Part shown: positions 8,156 to 27,683 of the stretch, in pieces
Layout: each line of letters opens with the position of its first letter
How positions within the stretch are numbered: position 1 is the stretch's first letter
From: Geobacter sp. FeAm09
Lineage (GTDB): Bacteria; Desulfobacterota; Desulfuromonadia; Geobacterales; Pseudopelobacteraceae
DNA length: 64,000 bases
NCBI RefSeq assembly: GCF_008330225.1
Contig: NZ_CP042466.1
Location: forward strand, 754,501 to 818,500
Reading direction: 5' to 3'
Made by a program: the position numbers and the translations under genes
The notes under the pieces: model-generated
What the model was told of the DNA's origin: nothing
The model's database searches: none
Seen by the model: only the letters and a program-made list of their open reading frames with translations

Positions 8156-8161
8156 GGTAGT

Positions 8162-8241
8162 CGATAATACTCAACCATCCGCGAGGATGGGGCGGAAAGC
8201 CTACAGGGTCTCACCGAGACAGCCGGGTTGCCGAAATATCA
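8162..8241 (+). promoter_or_regulatory. GEMM-I riboswitch, probable GEMM-Ib (3',3'-cGAMP) subtype, copy 1
   Basis: The aptamer shows all GEMM-I elements in order: a hairpin CCATCC-GCGA-GGATGG with a GNRA tetraloop, the conserved GGCGGAAAGCC junction, a second hairpin around GGGTCTC-ACC-GAGAC, and the closing GCCGGGTTGCCGAA. It closely resembles the Geobacter RNAs shown to bind cyclic AMP-GMP. It has AATAC at the place where Vc2-type c-di-GMP aptamers carry the ligand-contacting G20, and the A there is the published selectivity signature. It is identical over 80 bases to copy 3 at 23108. The subtype assignment rests on remembered alignments. Downstream lies an intrinsic terminator and the beta-barrel gene. 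Confidence 0.88.
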
Positions 8242-8334: not shown

Positions 8335-8937
8335 ATGAAGAAGACCATCTATTCCTGCTGTTTGGCCTTGTCGCTATTTCTGGCCGTCAACCCCGCCATG
8401 GCGGGCGATATCAAGGGTAGGCTCGGCGTCACCGGCAGACTCGGCTTTCTGGTCCCGGCCGACAGCGAGCTGTCGGGGCGCAACGCCAGCACCGACACCG
8501 CTTTCGTCGGGGGCGGCGGCTTTATCTACGGCATAACCAACAACATCGCGGCGGAGCTCGACATCACCCATACCGACTACGATGTCCACGGCTTCGGTGA
8601 AGGCGGCAACGCCGAAACCACCAATTTCTCCCTGGGCGCCCAGTACCGTTTCGACGTTACGGTCCCCCAACTGACCCCCTATGTGGGCGCCGGCCTGGAT
8701 ATCCTGATCAACGATTTCAGCTACTCCGACGGGACCAAGACCGACGTGGACAACACCGTGGGTGTCCATGTCAGCGGCGGCGTCGACTATTTCGTAGCCA
8801 AACAGGTTGCCCTGAACGCCCAGCTCAAGGCGGTCCTGAGCCCCAACGCCGACATCAACTATCTGGGAAGGAAAGCCGGCAACATAGACCCCATGAGCAT
8901 CTCCACGACCTTTGGCGTGCGATACTTCTTCAACTAG
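8335..8937 (+). CDS. Outer-membrane beta-barrel protein (OmpA/opacity-like, 8-stranded type)
   Basis: A 200-residue protein with a signal peptide (MKKTIYSCCLALSLFLAV, cleavage after AMA) and alternating hydrophobic/glycine-rich strands. It ends in a terminal phenylalanine-type C-terminus (FGVRYFFN), typical of small outer-membrane barrels. AAAGGAG precedes the ATG by six bases. Motifs such as GGGFIYGITNNIAAELDITH resemble OmpW/opacity-type porin-like proteins; the exact family is unclear. Transcription passes through a probable cGAMP riboswitch, so surface composition appears to be tied to second-messenger level. A strong terminator follows 20 bases after the stop, making the gene monocistronic. 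Confidence 0.85.
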   Translation: MKKTIYSCCLALSLFLAVNPAMAGDIKGRLGVTGRLGFLVPADSELSGRNASTDTAFVGGGGFIYGITNNIAAELDITHTDYDVHGFGEGGNAETTNFSLGAQYRFDVTVPQLTPYVGAGLDILINDFSYSDGTKTDVDNTVGVHVSGGVDYFVAKQVALNAQLKAVLSPNADINYLGRKAGNIDPMSISTTFGVRYFFN

Positions 8938-22899: not shown

Positions 22900-22928
22900 T
22901 TGACAAGCCTCTCCGGACCTGATAGAAA
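22900..22928 (+). promoter_or_regulatory. Sigma-70-type promoter upstream of the tandem riboswitches
   Basis: TTGACA (22900-22905), 17 bases, TAGAAA (22923-22928). The start would fall near 22935, about 18 bases before the first aptamer. No promoter-like sequence was found between the two aptamers, so one transcript should carry both. Confidence 0.55.
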
Positions 22929-22952
22929 AGCCGAAAATTTTTCAGGGATAGA

Positions 22953-23032
22953 CGACAATACTCAACCATCCGCAAGGATGGGGCGGAAAGCCTATAGGGT
23001 CTCACCGAGACAGCCGGGTTGCCGAAATATCA
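22953..23032 (+). promoter_or_regulatory. GEMM-I riboswitch, probable cGAMP subtype, copy 2 (first of tandem pair)
   Basis: Same architecture as copies 1 and 3, differing from them at three of 80 positions: GACAA for GATAA at the base of P1, a GCAA instead of GCGA tetraloop, and CTATAG for CTACAG. All three changes keep the structure. The A at the G20-equivalent position is retained, so cGAMP preference is predicted. Confidence 0.88.
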
Positions 23033-23060
23033 CGTGATATGCGGCAATCCGGCTTTTTTT
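23013..23060 (+). terminator. Terminator of riboswitch copy 2
   Basis: GCCGGGTTGCCG from the aptamer's 3' strand pairs with CGGCAATCCGGC (one G-T pair), followed by seven T. This is mutually exclusive with the folded aptamer, so ligand should relieve termination. Confidence 0.8.
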
Positions 23061-23107
23061 GTGCCGCACCGCGCTGCCCGCCGACGGCAGTACAACCAGG
23101 TGGTACA

Positions 23108-23187
23108 CGATAATACTCAACCATCCGCGAGGATGGGGCGGAAAGCCTACAGGGTCTCACCGAGACAGCCGGGTTGCCGAAATATCA
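23108..23187 (+). promoter_or_regulatory. GEMM-I riboswitch, probable cGAMP subtype, copy 3 (second of tandem pair)
   Basis: Identical over 80 bases to copy 1 at 8162-8241, fifteen kilobases away. It starts 48 bases after the T tract of the first unit. Being downstream of another complete riboswitch-terminator unit, it forms a serial gate on the same transcript. Confidence 0.88.
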
Positions 23188-23216
23188 CGCCAGATATGCG
23201 GTAATCCGGCTTTTTT
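23168..23216 (+). terminator. Terminator of riboswitch copy 3
   Basis: GCCGGGTTGCCG pairs with CGGTAATCCGGC (two G-T pairs), followed by six T. The stem is weaker than that of copy 2, suggesting the two gates differ in tightness. Confidence 0.75.
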
Positions 23217-23309
23217 GCGCCCGGACCCGAAATGTGCGGGGACAATCCCGGTTGGAGGATCTGTCGCCGGTACACCCTACAGACCAGTGAGAAAGGTAGT
23301 GCATCGCCC

Positions 23310-24632
23310 ATGCGTCCAGTCGTCGCCCAGTCGCCCTTCTTGTCCAATTGTTTTCGCCTTGCGGCGCTTTGGGTCTTCATCGCGGCTCTCCAGGGGTGCG
23401 CCGCGGTAAAAGGTGCCCAGGAAAATTCCTGGCTTGCTTCGGGCCCGGTTGAAAAGGAGGTCGAACGAAACCGATTCCCGGTTGCCAAAGGAGACGACGT
23501 CATCGGCCGGCTGGCTGCCGTCAGGCTTGAAAAGGGGGATACGCTGCCGGATGTCGCCCGGCACTTTGGCCTGGGGATCAACGCCATCAGCGCCGCCAAT
23601 CCCGGGGTGGACGTATGGGCGCCCGAGGTCGGAAAACGTATCGTCCTGCCCCTGAGCTTCATCCTGCCGAACGCTTCGAGAAAAGGCATCGTGGTCAATC
23701 TGGCCGCCATGAGGCTCTTTCACTATACCGGGGAGGGCACATCGCCGGTGGTGACGACCTATCCGGTCGGGGTGGGGACCAAAGAGCGGCCCACGCCCCA
23801 AGGCCAGATGCGCGTGGAGCGCAAGGCGGCCCGGCCGACCTGGCATGTGCCCGCTTCCATTGCGGCGGATCACCGGAAGAAGGGGGATATCCTGCCCGCG
23901 GCAGTGCCGCCGGGGCCGCAGAACCCCCTGGGGGAATACGCGCTCTATCTGAGTAAAGCGGGCTATCTGATCCACGGCACCAACAAGCCGGCCAGTATCG
24001 GCCTGAAAGCGACCAACGGCTGCATGCGGCTCTACCCGGAAAACATCAAGGCGCTCTTCGGCGATACCCCGGTCGCCACGCCGGTCGCCATCGTCAATCA
24101 GCCCTACCTCATCGGCCAACGCGATGGCGTGCTGTACCTGGAAGCCCATACGCCCCTGGAAGACTCGGGCGCCGGCGAGTTGCAGAAAGTGTACGAGCGG
24201 TTGAAAATCATCGAAAAGAAGTCAGGGCGCACGCTCGACTGGGAAAAGATCAGGCAGGTTCAGACCGAAGCCCGGGGGATTCCCGTCCCCATCTTCGAAA
24301 TGGGCCCGGGGAGCGGGGGAGGGCTGCCAAAAACCGTGGAGGTGGAGCATCCGGCCACCCTGTACGGCAAACCGGAACAGCCTGAACTGAACATGGCGGC
24401 GTGGTATGTGCTGGCTGCCGATGTGCATGACGAGATCGACGCCCGGAGAATCGCCGCCATCATCAACCACCAGGGGCCGCCGATCCCGGCGCAGGTGCTG
24501 CCAAAGAGCAAGAGCTACCGGGTTATCGCCGGCCCTTTCGGCACTGTTGGCGAGGCCAGGGAGGCGACCAGGCGCCTGAAAATGGATTTGGATATGGACG
24601 GTATCGTGATTGAACCGGTCGGGACGCTGTGA
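23310..24632 (+). CDS. L,D-transpeptidase lipoprotein with LysM and SPOR-like regions
   Basis: A 440-residue protein. An N-terminal signal sequence with a lipobox (ALQGC) is followed by a LysM domain (RLEKGDTLPDVARHFGLGI, SAANPG). A YkuD L,D-transpeptidase domain comes next with the His and Cys motifs IHGTNKPASIGLK and TNGCMRLY, and then a C-terminal SPOR-like repeat (YRVIAGPFGTVGEAREA). It should form or exchange peptide cross-links, or attach lipoproteins to peptidoglycan, in the periplasm. The ATG has only a distant AAAGG; other starts are possible. Two serial riboswitches precede it and a Braun-type lipoprotein gene follows 81 bases later, a probable enzyme-substrate pair. Confidence 0.9.
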   Translation: MRPVVAQSPFLSNCFRLAALWVFIAALQGCAAVKGAQENSWLASGPVEKEVERNRFPVAKGDDVIGRLAAVRLEKGDTLPDVARHFGLGINAISAANPGVDVWAPEVGKRIVLPLSFILPNASRKGIVVNLAAMRLFHYTGEGTSPVVTTYPVGVGTKERPTPQGQMRVERKAARPTWHVPASIAADHRKKGDILPAAVPPGPQNPLGEYALYLSKAGYLIHGTNKPASIGLKATNGCMRLYPENIKALFGDTPVATPVAIVNQPYLIGQRDGVLYLEAHTPLEDSGAGELQKVYERLKIIEKKSGRTLDWEKIRQVQTEARGIPVPIFEMGPGSGGGLPKTVEVEHPATLYGKPEQPELNMAAWYVLAADVHDEIDARRIAAIINHQGPPIPAQVLPKSKSYRVIAGPFGTVGEAREATRRLKMDLDMDGIVIEPVGTL

Positions 24633-24713
24633 ACCGGGTTTATGAAGCAGGGCCTTATTTGGACAGGCACCTGTTGAAACAGGGCAAACCAACAAAAAAG
24701 GAGGCAGTCGGAG

Positions 24714-25016
24714 ATGAAAAAAAGTATGGTACTGGTAGCAATGATGTTGTTCCCCGCCATGACGCTGACGAGTTGTGCAACAACCGGTGACCTGGAGAAA
24801 ATGCAGGCACAGCAGAAACTGATCGATGCGAAGGCCGATCAGGCATTGCAGGATGCGCAGGCTGCCAAGGCGGCGGCCGATGCGGCCAAGTTGAAGGCGG
24901 ATGTTGCCACGGCCCGCGCCGAAGAAGCGACCAAGGAGGCAGAGGCGCGGGAAAAGATCGCCGATGAAAAGGCGAAAAAAGCCGATGCGGTTTTCCAGAG
25001 GTCCATGAAGAAATAG
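24714..25016 (+). CDS. Braun-type (Lpp/OprI-like) alanine-rich lipoprotein
   Basis: A 100-residue lipoprotein with lipobox MTLTSCATTG, followed by an uninterrupted alanine-rich coiled coil with heptad spacing (QALQDAQAAKAAADAAKLK) and a C-terminal Lys-Lys. Lpp family members end in the lysine that L,D-transpeptidases join to peptidoglycan. With such an enzyme encoded just upstream and another just downstream, this protein is probably covalently wall-linked and tethers the outer membrane. AAAAGGAGG precedes the ATG. It shares the riboswitch-controlled transcript and is followed by a terminator. Confidence 0.85.
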   Translation: MKKSMVLVAMMLFPAMTLTSCATTGDLEKMQAQQKLIDAKADQALQDAQAAKAAADAAKLKADVATARAEEATKEAEAREKIADEKAKKADAVFQRSMKK

Positions 25017-25042
25017 GTCGATTCCTGATGACTGCTGAGGAT

Positions 25043-25080
25043 AATGAAATGGCAGGGTCTCACACCCCTGCCGTTTCATT
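25043..25080 (+). terminator. Hairpin terminator after the Braun-type lipoprotein gene
   Basis: A 15-bp stem (AATGAAATGGCAGGG with CCCTGCCGTTTCATT, one G-T pair). The T tract is only moderate, so some read-through to the next gene is possible. Confidence 0.7.
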
Positions 25081-25140
25081 ATTCGCCACGTACGCTAGCG
25101 GAGCACGATGGTCCCGGTGCATCCGCCAGGAGGTGAGGAG

Positions 25141-26154
25141 ATGAGGGAACCGAGAGCCTGCCCAATCATACGGCCTGATGGTTTCAGACGTTCTTCGGCA
25201 TATGCGGGCGGGAAAAGGGGGCGGAGAAGGGGACGCCTCTTCCTGTTCCTTGCCGCCATGGTATTAGCGCCGATGATGATGGCCGGCTGCGGCGGCATGC
25301 AGGGAGGGTTTCGCGACAGGGCCGCCTTTGCAGAGGCCAATGACCTGTTCAGCCAGGGGAAGTACCAGGCATCTCTGAACAAATACGGCCAGCTTATGGA
25401 AAAAGAGCCCGCAGCGAGGGATCGGATTCTGTTTGAAATGGGTATCATTTATGCCCACCCCAAAAATGAACAAAAGGATTATCCGAAATCCCTGGACTGC
25501 TTCCAAAAGATCATCAGGGAATATCCCGGGAGCGACTACCGGCACAACAGTGAGGTCATGGTCTTTACCATTAACAACGTGGTTTTCAAGGACCGGTTGA
25601 TTGCCGAGCAGCACGCGCGAATAGAGGCTCTTCATCACGAGGCGAAACGTGGGGAGGATGAAGCTGCTGCACTGCAACGGAGGATACGGCTGCTCGAACA
25701 GAATGTTCTGGATTTTGCGGCCAGGAAACGGTCGGTAGACAGGATCGTGATTGAAAAGAAGGAACGGCGGCTGATGCTGCTCTCAAAGGGCGAGGTGCTC
25801 AAAACCTACAGGATAGCCCTGGGGGGAAACCCGGACGGCCCCAAGGAACGGCGGGGAGACAACAAAACACCTGAGGGCACCTACGTCATCGACGGAAAGA
25901 ACAGGAACAGCCAGTACCACCAATCCCTCCATATCTCCTACCCGAACGAGCGAGACAAAAAACGGGCGAAAGAACTGGGTGTCTCCCCCGGCGGCGACAT
26001 CATGATCCACGGAATCAAGGCGGGATTCTCGTGGGTTGGCGCCCTTCAGGCAAACAATGACTGGACAAAGGGGTGCATTGCCGTAACGGATGAAGAGATC
26101 GAGGAGATCTTCAAGCTGGTGTCACTCGATACGGTTGTGGAGATACGGCCGTAG
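25141..26154 (+). CDS. Second L,D-transpeptidase (YkuD) lipoprotein with TPR-like region
   Basis: A 337-residue protein. A long basic N-region precedes a hydrophobic core and lipobox (MMMAGCGG). A TPR-like helical region follows (AFAEANDLFSQGKYQASLNK) with a coiled coil near residue 170. The catalytic domain has IMIHGIK and TKGCIAV, the His and Cys motifs of YkuD enzymes (ErfK/YafK-like). The ATG is preceded by GGAGG. It sits 124 bases after the Braun-type lipoprotein and may attach or, like DpaA, detach such lipoproteins; which of the two is not determined. Its stop is three bases from the end of the converging radical SAM gene. Confidence 0.88.
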   Translation: MREPRACPIIRPDGFRRSSAYAGGKRGRRRGRLFLFLAAMVLAPMMMAGCGGMQGGFRDRAAFAEANDLFSQGKYQASLNKYGQLMEKEPAARDRILFEMGIIYAHPKNEQKDYPKSLDCFQKIIREYPGSDYRHNSEVMVFTINNVVFKDRLIAEQHARIEALHHEAKRGEDEAAALQRRIRLLEQNVLDFAARKRSVDRIVIEKKERRLMLLSKGEVLKTYRIALGGNPDGPKERRGDNKTPEGTYVIDGKNRNSQYHQSLHISYPNERDKKRAKELGVSPGGDIMIHGIKAGFSWVGALQANNDWTKGCIAVTDEEIEEIFKLVSLDTVVEIRP

Positions 26155-26156
26155 GG

Positions 26157-27683
26157 CTACCCACGCCGCCCACCCGCCCCACTGGCAAAGAACGCGGCGT
26201 GGTTGGAGGTGAACAGGGGCGGGTCGTTCCGTACGATCGCCGCTACGGCCGGGTGGCGTTTGAACTCCTTGTCCAGAAAGCCCCGCACCTGCTTGCGGTC
26301 CCAGCCGTTGGGATGGCGGAACGCGGTGTAGAGGGACAGGTCCCCCTCGTAGAACGTGCCCTCGCCGTAGCCGGCCGCCTCGTCGCCGCAGATCGGCATG
26401 TTGAAGATGGCCAGGTTCATGAAGGTGACGGCCTCGTGGTGGCGCACCACGAATTCCAGGGTACGCCGCGCCTCGGCCTCGGTCTCGGCCGGGGTGCCGA
26501 AGAGCAGGTACAGGTAGACCCCGATCCCCGCCGCATGCAGATTGCGCAGCACCACCGACGCCTCCCCGAGGTCGATCCCCTTGTCAAGCCTGTCCAGCAC
26601 CCCCTGATCGCCCGATTCCAGCCCCAGCTTGAGCATCACGCAGCCTGAACGCCTCAGGGCGCGGCAGAAATCCGGGTCGGCCAACTCCGGGCCGAAGCGG
26701 GCGAAGCCGTACCAGGGGGCGCCGGGCGGATCGGCGGCCACGGCCCGCAGGAAGGCGGGGCTTACGGCGTTGTCCAGCAGGTGCAGCAACACCGGCCGGG
26801 TCTGGGCGGCGAGGGCGTGCAGGTCGGCCAGGGCCTCGCCGACCGGCAGCGGCGTGTAGCGGTTCCCCTCGGCCCGCTCCGGGCAGAAGGAGCAGCGGTT
26901 CCAGTAGCAGCCACCGGCGGCGCTGTAGGGGAGGATGAAGCCGGGCGCGAGATAGTCGCGCATGGGCAGCAGGGTGTAGTCGGGCCTGACCCGTCCCCGG
27001 TCCGGGGCGGCGGAGCCCAGGAGTTCCAGCAGGGGGAGCTCCCCCGGTCCCGCGATCAGGTGGTCCACCAGCCCGCCGAAGGGGTTTTCCCACCCCGGCC
27101 GGCGCAGCCACGAGGTGACCAGGCCGCCCCCCAGGACGATGCGCAGGGCGGGGAAGCGTTTCCGCACCTGGCCGATCATGGCGAAGGTGGTGAGCGCCTG
27201 GCTCAGGTAGTTGAGGGAGAAGCCGACCGTGGCCACGCCGTCGAGCCATTGCTCGAAGCCGGCGCTGAACCAGGGATAAAAGGGGTTCTGCTCGGGGTGT
27301 CCGGCGCTGAAGAGCAGGTCCGCGCTCCGCAGGGGGGAGAGCCGGACGTGCTGGTAGTCCGCCAGCCCCACCACCGCGCCGCTTGCCCGGCCCGCCACGG
27401 CCAAGAGGCGGTTCAGGTCGTTGACGGCCCGGCTGTAGCGGTCGGGGGAGCGGTACAGGTCGCCGCCCCGCAGGTCGGCCAGGTGGCGTGCGCGCCCCTT
27501 GGCGGCCCGGCGACTCCAGGTGTCGCCGGCCGCGCACGGCTGTCCCAGCAGCCAGAGCAGGCCCTCCAGGTTGGCGTCCAGCACCCGGCAGGGGAGGCCG
27601 CGGCCATGCAGGGCGGCCGCCAGCTGGGCGATGCCGGCCGGCGGCTCGCACGGCTTGGCTGTGGGAGGAAAGATAAGGAGCAT
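26157..27683 (-). CDS. B12-binding-type radical SAM protein
   Basis: A 508-residue protein. The N-terminal part starts MLLIFPPTAKPCEPPAGIA, typical of the cobalamin-binding/Rossmann half of this superfamily, though the usual DxHxxG cobalamin motif is not evident. The radical SAM half has the cluster motif GGCYWNRCSFCPE (cysteine spacing 4 and 2), later MLKLGLESGDQGVLDRLDKG and YLYLLFGTPAETEAEA. Possible roles are methylation or peptide/lipid modification; the substrate is unknown. The start is uncertain (ATG 27683 or 27713, neither with a good ribosome binding site). Its promoter region is shared with the dcuB control region. Confidence 0.82.
   Translation of the reverse strand: MLLIFPPTAKPCEPPAGIAQLAAALHGRGLPCRVLDANLEGLLWLLGQPCAAGDTWSRRAAKGRARHLADLRGGDLYRSPDRYSRAVNDLNRLLAVAGRASGAVVGLADYQHVRLSPLRSADLLFSAGHPEQNPFYPWFSAGFEQWLDGVATVGFSLNYLSQALTTFAMIGQVRKRFPALRIVLGGGLVTSWLRRPGWENPFGGLVDHLIAGPGELPLLELLGSAAPDRGRVRPDYTLLPMRDYLAPGFILPYSAAGGCYWNRCSFCPERAEGNRYTPLPVGEALADLHALAAQTRPVLLHLLDNAVSPAFLRAVAADPPGAPWYGFARFGPELADPDFCRALRRSGCVMLKLGLESGDQGVLDRLDKGIDLGEASVVLRNLHAAGIGVYLYLLFGTPAETEAEARRTLEFVVRHHEAVTFMNLAIFNMPICGDEAAGYGEGTFYEGDLSLYTAFRHPNGWDRKQVRGFLDKEFKRHPAVAAIVRNDPPLFTSNHAAFFASGAGGRRG

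Follow-up and report, generated by a model that had tools for sequence, protein, structure and literature searches.

A riboswitch-led Geobacter cassette with a probable role in reversible outer membrane attachment and with co-varying lengths of tether and presumed release enzyme

In Escherichia coli, the lipoprotein Lpp serves as an acceptor through its C-terminal lysine, the L,D-transpeptidases (LDTs) LdtA, LdtB and LdtC attach it to the cell wall, and DpaA detaches it. The genes are scattered and the enzymes, among them DpaA, which lacks an arm, are soluble; mature Lpp is 58 residues long, and no riboswitch takes part. The same functional trio is formed in Pseudomonas aeruginosa by OprI, LdtPae2 and LdtPae3, the last assigned by similarity; there, anchoring goes up in biofilm and ldt deletions impair biofilm formation, and the part of that account available to us describes neither a cassette nor a cyclic-dinucleotide riboswitch (PMC10434034). 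A 2021 survey of DpaA, in which Lpp was counted through Pfam PF04728 only, found Lpp only in some Gammaproteobacteria and suggested another purpose for DpaA in species that lack Lpp (PMC8263019).

In Geobacter sulfurreducens, GSU0181-0183 is an operon of "lipoprotein transpeptidases" with a cGAMP-type riboswitch and a middle gene annotated as murein lipoprotein (PMC6456294, PMC11934962). Its expression is 16-fold lower in a ΔgacA strain (PMC6456294), and since cGAMP control of this operon has been in print since 2019, such control is no new prediction here. The function of GSU0181-0183 was left uncharacterized in that work, whereas for the locus described below, which gene order and description suggest to be orthologous to GSU0181-0183, the genes are assigned, their distribution is mapped and co-varying lengths are reported. 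What is new is the probable function of the cassette, together with a match in length between the tether and the presumed release enzyme.

The locus lies in a window of 64,000 nucleotides from Geobacter sp. FeAm09, by which we mean the whole stretch of DNA that was analysed; all positions are those of the window, and all features are on the + strand. Three genes make up one cassette, for which the sequence-only reading had proposed cGAMP-tuned linkage of the outer membrane to the wall. That proposal is supported in part: sequence and comparison bear out aptamers of the cGAMP type, an acceptor of the Lpp type, an attacher resembling LdtA/B/C and a probable detacher resembling DpaA, while its regulatory element had already been published. 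On balance, the cassette is probably induced by cGAMP and serves to link outer membrane and peptidoglycan covalently and reversibly.

The leader contains two complete GEMM-I aptamers, at 22950..23026 and 23105..23181, with RF01051 scores of 43.5 and 42.6 bits, both above the gathering score, and both with the GEMM-I fold and core sequence. Each has its own terminator followed by a T-run. The stem of terminator 1 (23012..23061, fold -29.5 kcal/mol), a counterpart of which is found in all relatives inspected, shares the 3' strand of aptamer 1, and the stem of terminator 2 (23167..23217, fold -27.7 kcal/mol) shares sequence with aptamer 2. As judged from sequence and folding, terminator and aptamer are thus mutually exclusive, as in an expression platform of the ON type, and the leader is predicted to open when cGAMP is present. 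Both aptamers have A at the position of G20 in Vc2, the change in ligand specificity that defines the cGAMP type (GEMM-Ib). An A at the specificity base together with a T-run terminator occurs in 43 of 43 aptamers inspected, 40 of them from related cassettes and three from the window. Three riboswitch matches have G in the specificity column. One of these, L197, is truncated by the end of its contig, and its column is therefore misread; the other two, L187 and L188, have ATGCT where other aptamers have ATACT, and for this reason a few leaders may be of the c-di-GMP type. Ahead of the first aptamer stands a candidate sigma-70 promoter (22900..22928), assigned by consensus match only, with TTGACA at 22900-22905, a 17-nt spacer and TAGAAA at 22923-22928. 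Its TTGACA is kept in 21 of 22 related loci compared, which argues against transcription solely from promoters downstream of the riboswitches, one of the findings that the sequence-only reading had named as fatal to its proposal.

Of 57 related genomes, exactly the same 23 contain each of the three genes, which there lie next to one another in a constant order, and the trio is found in nearly all loci with enough flank among the best 80 relatives in named genomes. The riboswitch lies directly upstream of the cassette in 23 of these 23 genomes and in five further genomes of the order, and the arrangement is therefore not due to chance. The cassette is also present in Nitrospirota and in other Desulfobacterota, where, outside the Geobacter order, the riboswitch is absent from it. 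It follows that control by cGAMP is no inherent part of the tether function.

The first gene (23310..24632, a start probably preferred, from relatives, over 23232) encodes a lipoprotein with lipid Cys30 and with LysM (PF01476), YkuD (PF03734) and SPOR (PF05036) domains each above cut-off, in agreement with its earlier description as a LysM-YkuD-SPOR lipoprotein behind the riboswitches. Its catalytic Cys238 lies in TNGCMRL, so that the (S/T)xGCxR motif is retained, and its closest relatives are the E. coli LDTs of the LdtA/B/C/E lineage (3e-53 for LdtA). By sequence, it thus resembles the Lpp attachers LdtA/B/C.

The product of the second gene (24714..25016), already described as an alanine-coiled-coil lipoprotein of the acceptor type ending in Lys-Lys, is an alanine-zipper lipoprotein of the Lpp/OprI type, with a lipobox (lipid Cys21), a coiled-coil body, a mature length of 80 residues and the C-terminus ...QRSMKK, the last Lys codon being 25011-25013. 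It exceeds the family cut-offs of NF040598 (69 bits versus 43) and PF11839 (51.7 versus 23.1) and matches E. coli Lpp at 1.6e-7. The terminal lysine is present in 71 of 72 copies, from Nitrospirota to Geobacter, and this lipoprotein is the sole NF040598 protein above cut-off and occurs in exactly the 23 cassette genomes. Between its gene and the third lies a conserved hairpin (25040..25084), in which 8 of 17 pairs have changes on both sides and the covariation score of which is reached by none of 500 shuffles.

The third gene (25141..26154; the start at 25141, behind GGAGGTGAGG, is probably to be preferred over 25108) encodes a TPR-coiled-coil-YkuD lipoprotein with lipid Cys50, a YkuD score of 77 bits, a weak TPR match and catalytic Cys312 in TKGCIAV. 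The expected second YkuD lipoprotein is thus present, but it does not appear to be a second attaching transpeptidase: its nearest relative is DpaA (5e-14, versus 6e-4 for the closest LDT), and since the transpeptidase Arg is missing as well, the notion of two attaching transpeptidases was rejected. The top solved-structure match, by sequence (E 8.6e-8) and by fold, is 8ikr, which is DpaA. The structure model behind the fold ranking, built from ten sequences, is only moderate (mean pLDDT 71, pTM 0.40), and the ranking therefore serves as supporting evidence only. Residues corresponding to DpaA K83, Y109, M133, H135, C143 and A145 are each conserved in 22 of 22 DpaA-like proteins; these include the substrate residues Lys83 and Tyr109 and the Met133 that replaces a carboxypeptidase Trp. 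All 22 have GC[IV]A, with Ala two positions past the Cys, where DpaA amidases have Ala or Asn, and no Arg. In the alignment of DpaA-like proteins, DpaA Tyr131, without which DpaA (Y131A) keeps 4% of its activity, is absent and has Asp or Asn in its place, and Lys130 is absent and has Gly. The third protein also has about 14 additional residues ahead of the catalytic Cys and, at 46.9 bits versus 365, misses the NCBIfam cut-off for the DpaA equivalog. We therefore regard it as a DpaA-like relative and do not file it as DpaA itself. It is likely the detacher, and the suggestion that one enzyme attaches and the other detaches is the best reading of the LdtA/B/C-like and DpaA-like pair.

Among the lipoprotein copies, the length of the tether changes in heptad steps, and after phylogenetic correction it correlates with the length of the coil arm in the DpaA-like enzyme (r = 0.60 by PIC, with a sign-flip p of ~2e-5; r = 0.42 when the three largest contrasts are left out). 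The measure used for the arm parses locus L236 correctly. The correlation between LDT linker and tether length has r = 0.36 and p = 0.1 (n = 40).

Under the proposed mechanism, transcription would start 5' of the first aptamer. When cGAMP is lacking, each of the two riboswitches would make its own terminator, and when it is bound, each aptamer would be stabilised and transcription would pass twice. The lipidated LDT would join the side-chain amine of the C-terminal lysine of the lipoprotein to a DAP in the wall, the reaction that LdtA/B/C carry out on Lpp, and the resulting tether would be an alanine zipper, probably a trimeric coiled coil, that is longer than Lpp. The lipidated DpaA-like enzyme, borne on an arm of TPR and coiled coil that fits the tether, would hydrolyse the tether-wall bond. 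We infer both reactions, together with the direction of the net change and any physiological use. If cGAMP raises the attaching and detaching arms of the cycle together, it would therefore set the supply and turnover of tether, and need not simply produce more tethering.

LysM and SPOR domains bind glycan, and their presence in the first protein would suit an enzyme that is chiefly a 3-3 cross-linker like LdtE, with the lipoprotein as a non-covalent spacer and an operon that strengthens the wall without covalent tethering. LdtE is almost as similar to this protein as LdtA-C (161 versus 170 bits), and Lpp-attaching and 3-3 cross-linking LDTs, which according to PMC10434034 form no separate lineages, cannot be told apart by sequence. 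We nevertheless consider this account unlikely, as the C-terminal lysine is near-invariant, the LDT strictly co-occurs with an Lpp-type protein, and its partner is of the type of DpaA, which is known to act on the bond between Lpp and the wall.

Somewhat less improbable, though still doubtful, is a reading of the third protein not as a detaching amidase but as an L,D-carboxypeptidase like Csd6 or Pgp2, or as a sensor or scaffold without activity: the Arg is absent from DpaA and LD-carboxypeptidases alike (PMC8263019), and Tyr131 and Lys130 of DpaA are missing. Against this stand the invariant catalytic His and Cys and the tracking of tether length by the arm. A carboxypeptidase is made less likely by the residue of the D-Ala pocket (Trp158 of Csd6), which is Met in all 22 proteins as in DpaA, and by the match ranks, where 7o21 (0.014) and Pgp2 (0.016) fall far below 8ikr. 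That the leader senses c-di-GMP, or both signals, in this organism is very improbable. In nine other GEMM-I aptamers of the genome the specificity base is G, and a riboswitch before OmcST is sensitive to both signals (cited in PMC6456294), but A is found in both leader aptamers and in 40 of 40 related ones inspected, and the genome encodes a GacA-like GGDEF protein that has Ser at its specificity site and, among solved structures, matches best the Hypr structure 6d9m (E 9.5e-69; next 1.5e-43).

For the preferred reading, reversible tethering, the correlated lengths allow a more tentative extension. If the membrane-anchored coiled-coil arm of the detacher must fit the tether if the active site is to reach the bond between tether and wall, tether and enzyme would therefore evolve together in heptad steps. 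It is possible, though we would not wager on it, that the cassette is a widespread length-matched tethering machine, placed in Geobacter under a double cGAMP gate and resetting outer-membrane-to-wall spacing or tether turnover on the switch to metal-oxide respiration. In contrast to the 2021 survey, the DpaA-like gene here stands beside a gene of the Lpp/OprI family (PF11839), which provides a candidate Lpp-type tether for Geobacter, Nitrospirota and other Desulfobacterota. The co-varying lengths offer a rare sequence-level handle on the spacing between membrane and wall, and a published but uncharacterized cGAMP operon becomes a testable hypothesis, namely that a second messenger may set the covalent attachment of the outer membrane.

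In the single-contig genome of 4.10 Mb, of which the window is position 754501-818500, three lipoprotein genes lie on the same strand: a LysM-YkuD-SPOR lipoprotein gene (23310-24632), an alanine-zipper lipoprotein gene (24714-25016), whose product ends in SMKK, and a TPR-YkuD lipoprotein gene (25141-26154), after which a convergent radical-SAM gene closes the operon at 26157. All three proteins have a lipobox; in the window copies its Cys is followed by Ala or Gly. The genes are preceded by two aptamer matches to RF01051 (22950-23026 and 23105-23181) that exceed the Rfam gathering score, which confirms the tandem riboswitch, domains and gene order described in the sequence-only reading. Among named relatives, Oryzomonas japonica has the nearest cassette (third protein, 80%).

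That reading also guessed that one YkuD enzyme attaches the lipoprotein to the wall and the other detaches it, and this is the best-supported assignment that sequence comparison offers. For the first YkuD protein, the E. coli matches are LdtA, LdtB, LdtC and LdtE at 1e-49 to 1e-53, with DpaA only at an E value of 0.5; the protein retains the GC-x-R motif. For the second, DpaA is the better match (5e-14, against 6e-4 for the nearest LDT), and the best solved-structure match by sequence, 8ikr, the crystal structure of DpaA (PMC10653827), also tops a fold search that used a structure model of moderate quality. It lacks the transpeptidase Arg, with GCIA where DpaA has GCYA, and a GCYA-type motif without Arg has been named as the DpaA signature (PMC8263019). 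DpaA has no activity after loss of Lys83 and 0.7% after loss of Tyr109 (PMC10653827); both residues are kept in 22 of 22 orthologs of the second YkuD protein, as is Met133, which stands where L,D-carboxypeptidases have a Trp. Tyr131, whose change to Ala leaves DpaA with 4% activity, has no conserved counterpart, and a longer loop than in DpaA leads up to the Cys. Because of these two differences the protein is called a putative DpaA-like relative and not filed as DpaA.

Similarity of the lipoprotein to E. coli Lpp is weak (1.6e-7), and its match to its own family model is strong. Of 72 copies, from several phyla, 71 end in Lys, the exception (L240) being a damaged or partial reading, while the penultimate residue may be K, R, M, L or Q.

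When each protein is used as a query, high-scoring matches to all three occur in the same 23 of 57 related genomes, where the genes are always neighbours in constant order (one genome is split over two contigs); NF040598 exceeds its cut-off in precisely these genomes, at the cassette position. One or two aptamers stand directly upstream of the cassette in all 23, and five further genomes of the order also have an aptamer-led cassette. With about 18 aptamers per 4.1-Mb genome, we estimate that one would fall in the 450 nt before a given gene in about one case in a thousand. Among the best 80 relatives in named genomes, which include Nitrospirota, Desulfobacterales and Syntrophales, the trio is retained in nearly every locus whose flanks are long enough to show it, and five loci have the third gene at the front. 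Cassettes outside the Geobacter group have no such riboswitch upstream, save one weak match (locus L183). The cassette thus has a broader distribution than its cGAMP control, which was apparently added later. One related genome carries a second, partial DpaA-like gene copy about 3 kb downstream of its cassette (G019:C1:3954319-3955011). Weak Lpp-family matches (frames of 132-154 aa) adjoin LDT paralogs (identity about 39-45%), and in one case a DpaA-like gene as well, at G003:C1:176226, G011:C186:13254, G015:C13:26291, G019:C1:4027650, G033:C11:9006, G045:C1:1306091, G046:C26:9906 and G049:C37:135599; they are perhaps a second, different tether module, present also in genomes without the first.

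In the filtered set, the mature tether is 73, 80, 87, 94, 101 or 108 residues long, in steps of seven, with one exception of 90. In the DpaA-like enzyme, the TPR part keeps a length of 63 residues (58 of 59 parsed copies, the remaining one mis-parsed), and it is the coil that varies. Tether and arm lengths correlate with a raw rho of 0.72; independent contrasts give r = 0.60 (sign-flip p about 2e-5), and r = 0.42 (p about 1e-4) when the three largest are removed. In the Geobacter genome L1geo and one Nitrospirota genome tether and arm are both shorter, 80/173 against 87/180 and 90-94/180 in their neighbours. This coupling supports a shared spatial task of tether and enzyme, and with it the proposal that the tether is the enzyme's substrate; the same pattern would arise if both lengths followed the width of the periplasm.

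A conserved covarying hairpin of about 17 pairs (25040-25084), without a clear T-run, sits in the gap between the lipoprotein and DpaA-like genes. Eight pairs are altered on both sides, a covariation reached in 0 of 500 shuffles, and the hairpin is no genome-wide repeat, occurring in three places in the genome. Possible roles are stabilisation of the lipoprotein message or reduced expression of the enzyme.

Aptamers of the cGAMP type (GEMM-Ib) are marked by an A where Vc2 has G20; both leader aptamers have it, as do all 40 inspected from related cassettes. Each aptamer has its own terminator, which by sequence and folding uses the 3' strand of the aptamer as its 5' arm and ends in a T-run in every case. 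This predicted layout is that of an ON switch, and two such units in series would form a double gate. A perfect TTGACA, a candidate promoter element by consensus, stands some 50 nt before the first leader aptamer, both in the window and in 21 of 22 relatives, so that the cassette is probably expressed by transcription that runs through the leader. The genome is also likely to have a source of cGAMP, since it encodes, outside the window, a GacA-like Hypr GGDEF candidate (locus L148, G000:C1:1881963-1882430). This response regulator is the genome's one GGDEF protein that carries Ser at the specificity position (GHLVGS), and among solved structures it matches the Hypr enzyme 6d9m best.

Other aptamers were seen nearby and elsewhere. 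In the window, a third cGAMP-type aptamer with terminator (8159-8235) precedes a gene for a small beta-barrel-like outer-membrane protein (about 8336-8937). In the same genome, one lies upstream of a gene for a CxxCH-bearing secreted protein (L013, G000:C1:1273914-1273990), and a tandem pair precedes a lipoprotein gene whose product has a glycine run after the lipid Cys (L011/L017, G000:C1:3736413-3736714). Two cassette-leading aptamers have ATGCT in place of ATACT (L187 2949-3026 and L188 4-80), which may mean that a few Geobacter genomes have changed to G at the specificity base. In two genomes, of which one is from Nitrospirota, aptamers of the c-di-GMP-I-GGC type lie shortly downstream of the cassette (L171 5211-5291 and L206 7435-7511).

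The proposal that cGAMP controls the cassette is not a new element, since it is already published at the expression level: GSU0181-0183 of G. sulfurreducens, described as 'uncharacterized lipoprotein transpeptidases', drop 16-fold in delta-gacA (PMC6456294), and GSU0182 is annotated as murein lipoprotein (PMC11934962). Orthology with the window cassette is presumed from gene order and description. The attaching and detaching activities and the physiological use of the cassette are predictions; what is added here is the part-by-part assignment of the trio, whose members are obligately associated and widely distributed, and the coupling in length between tether and enzyme.
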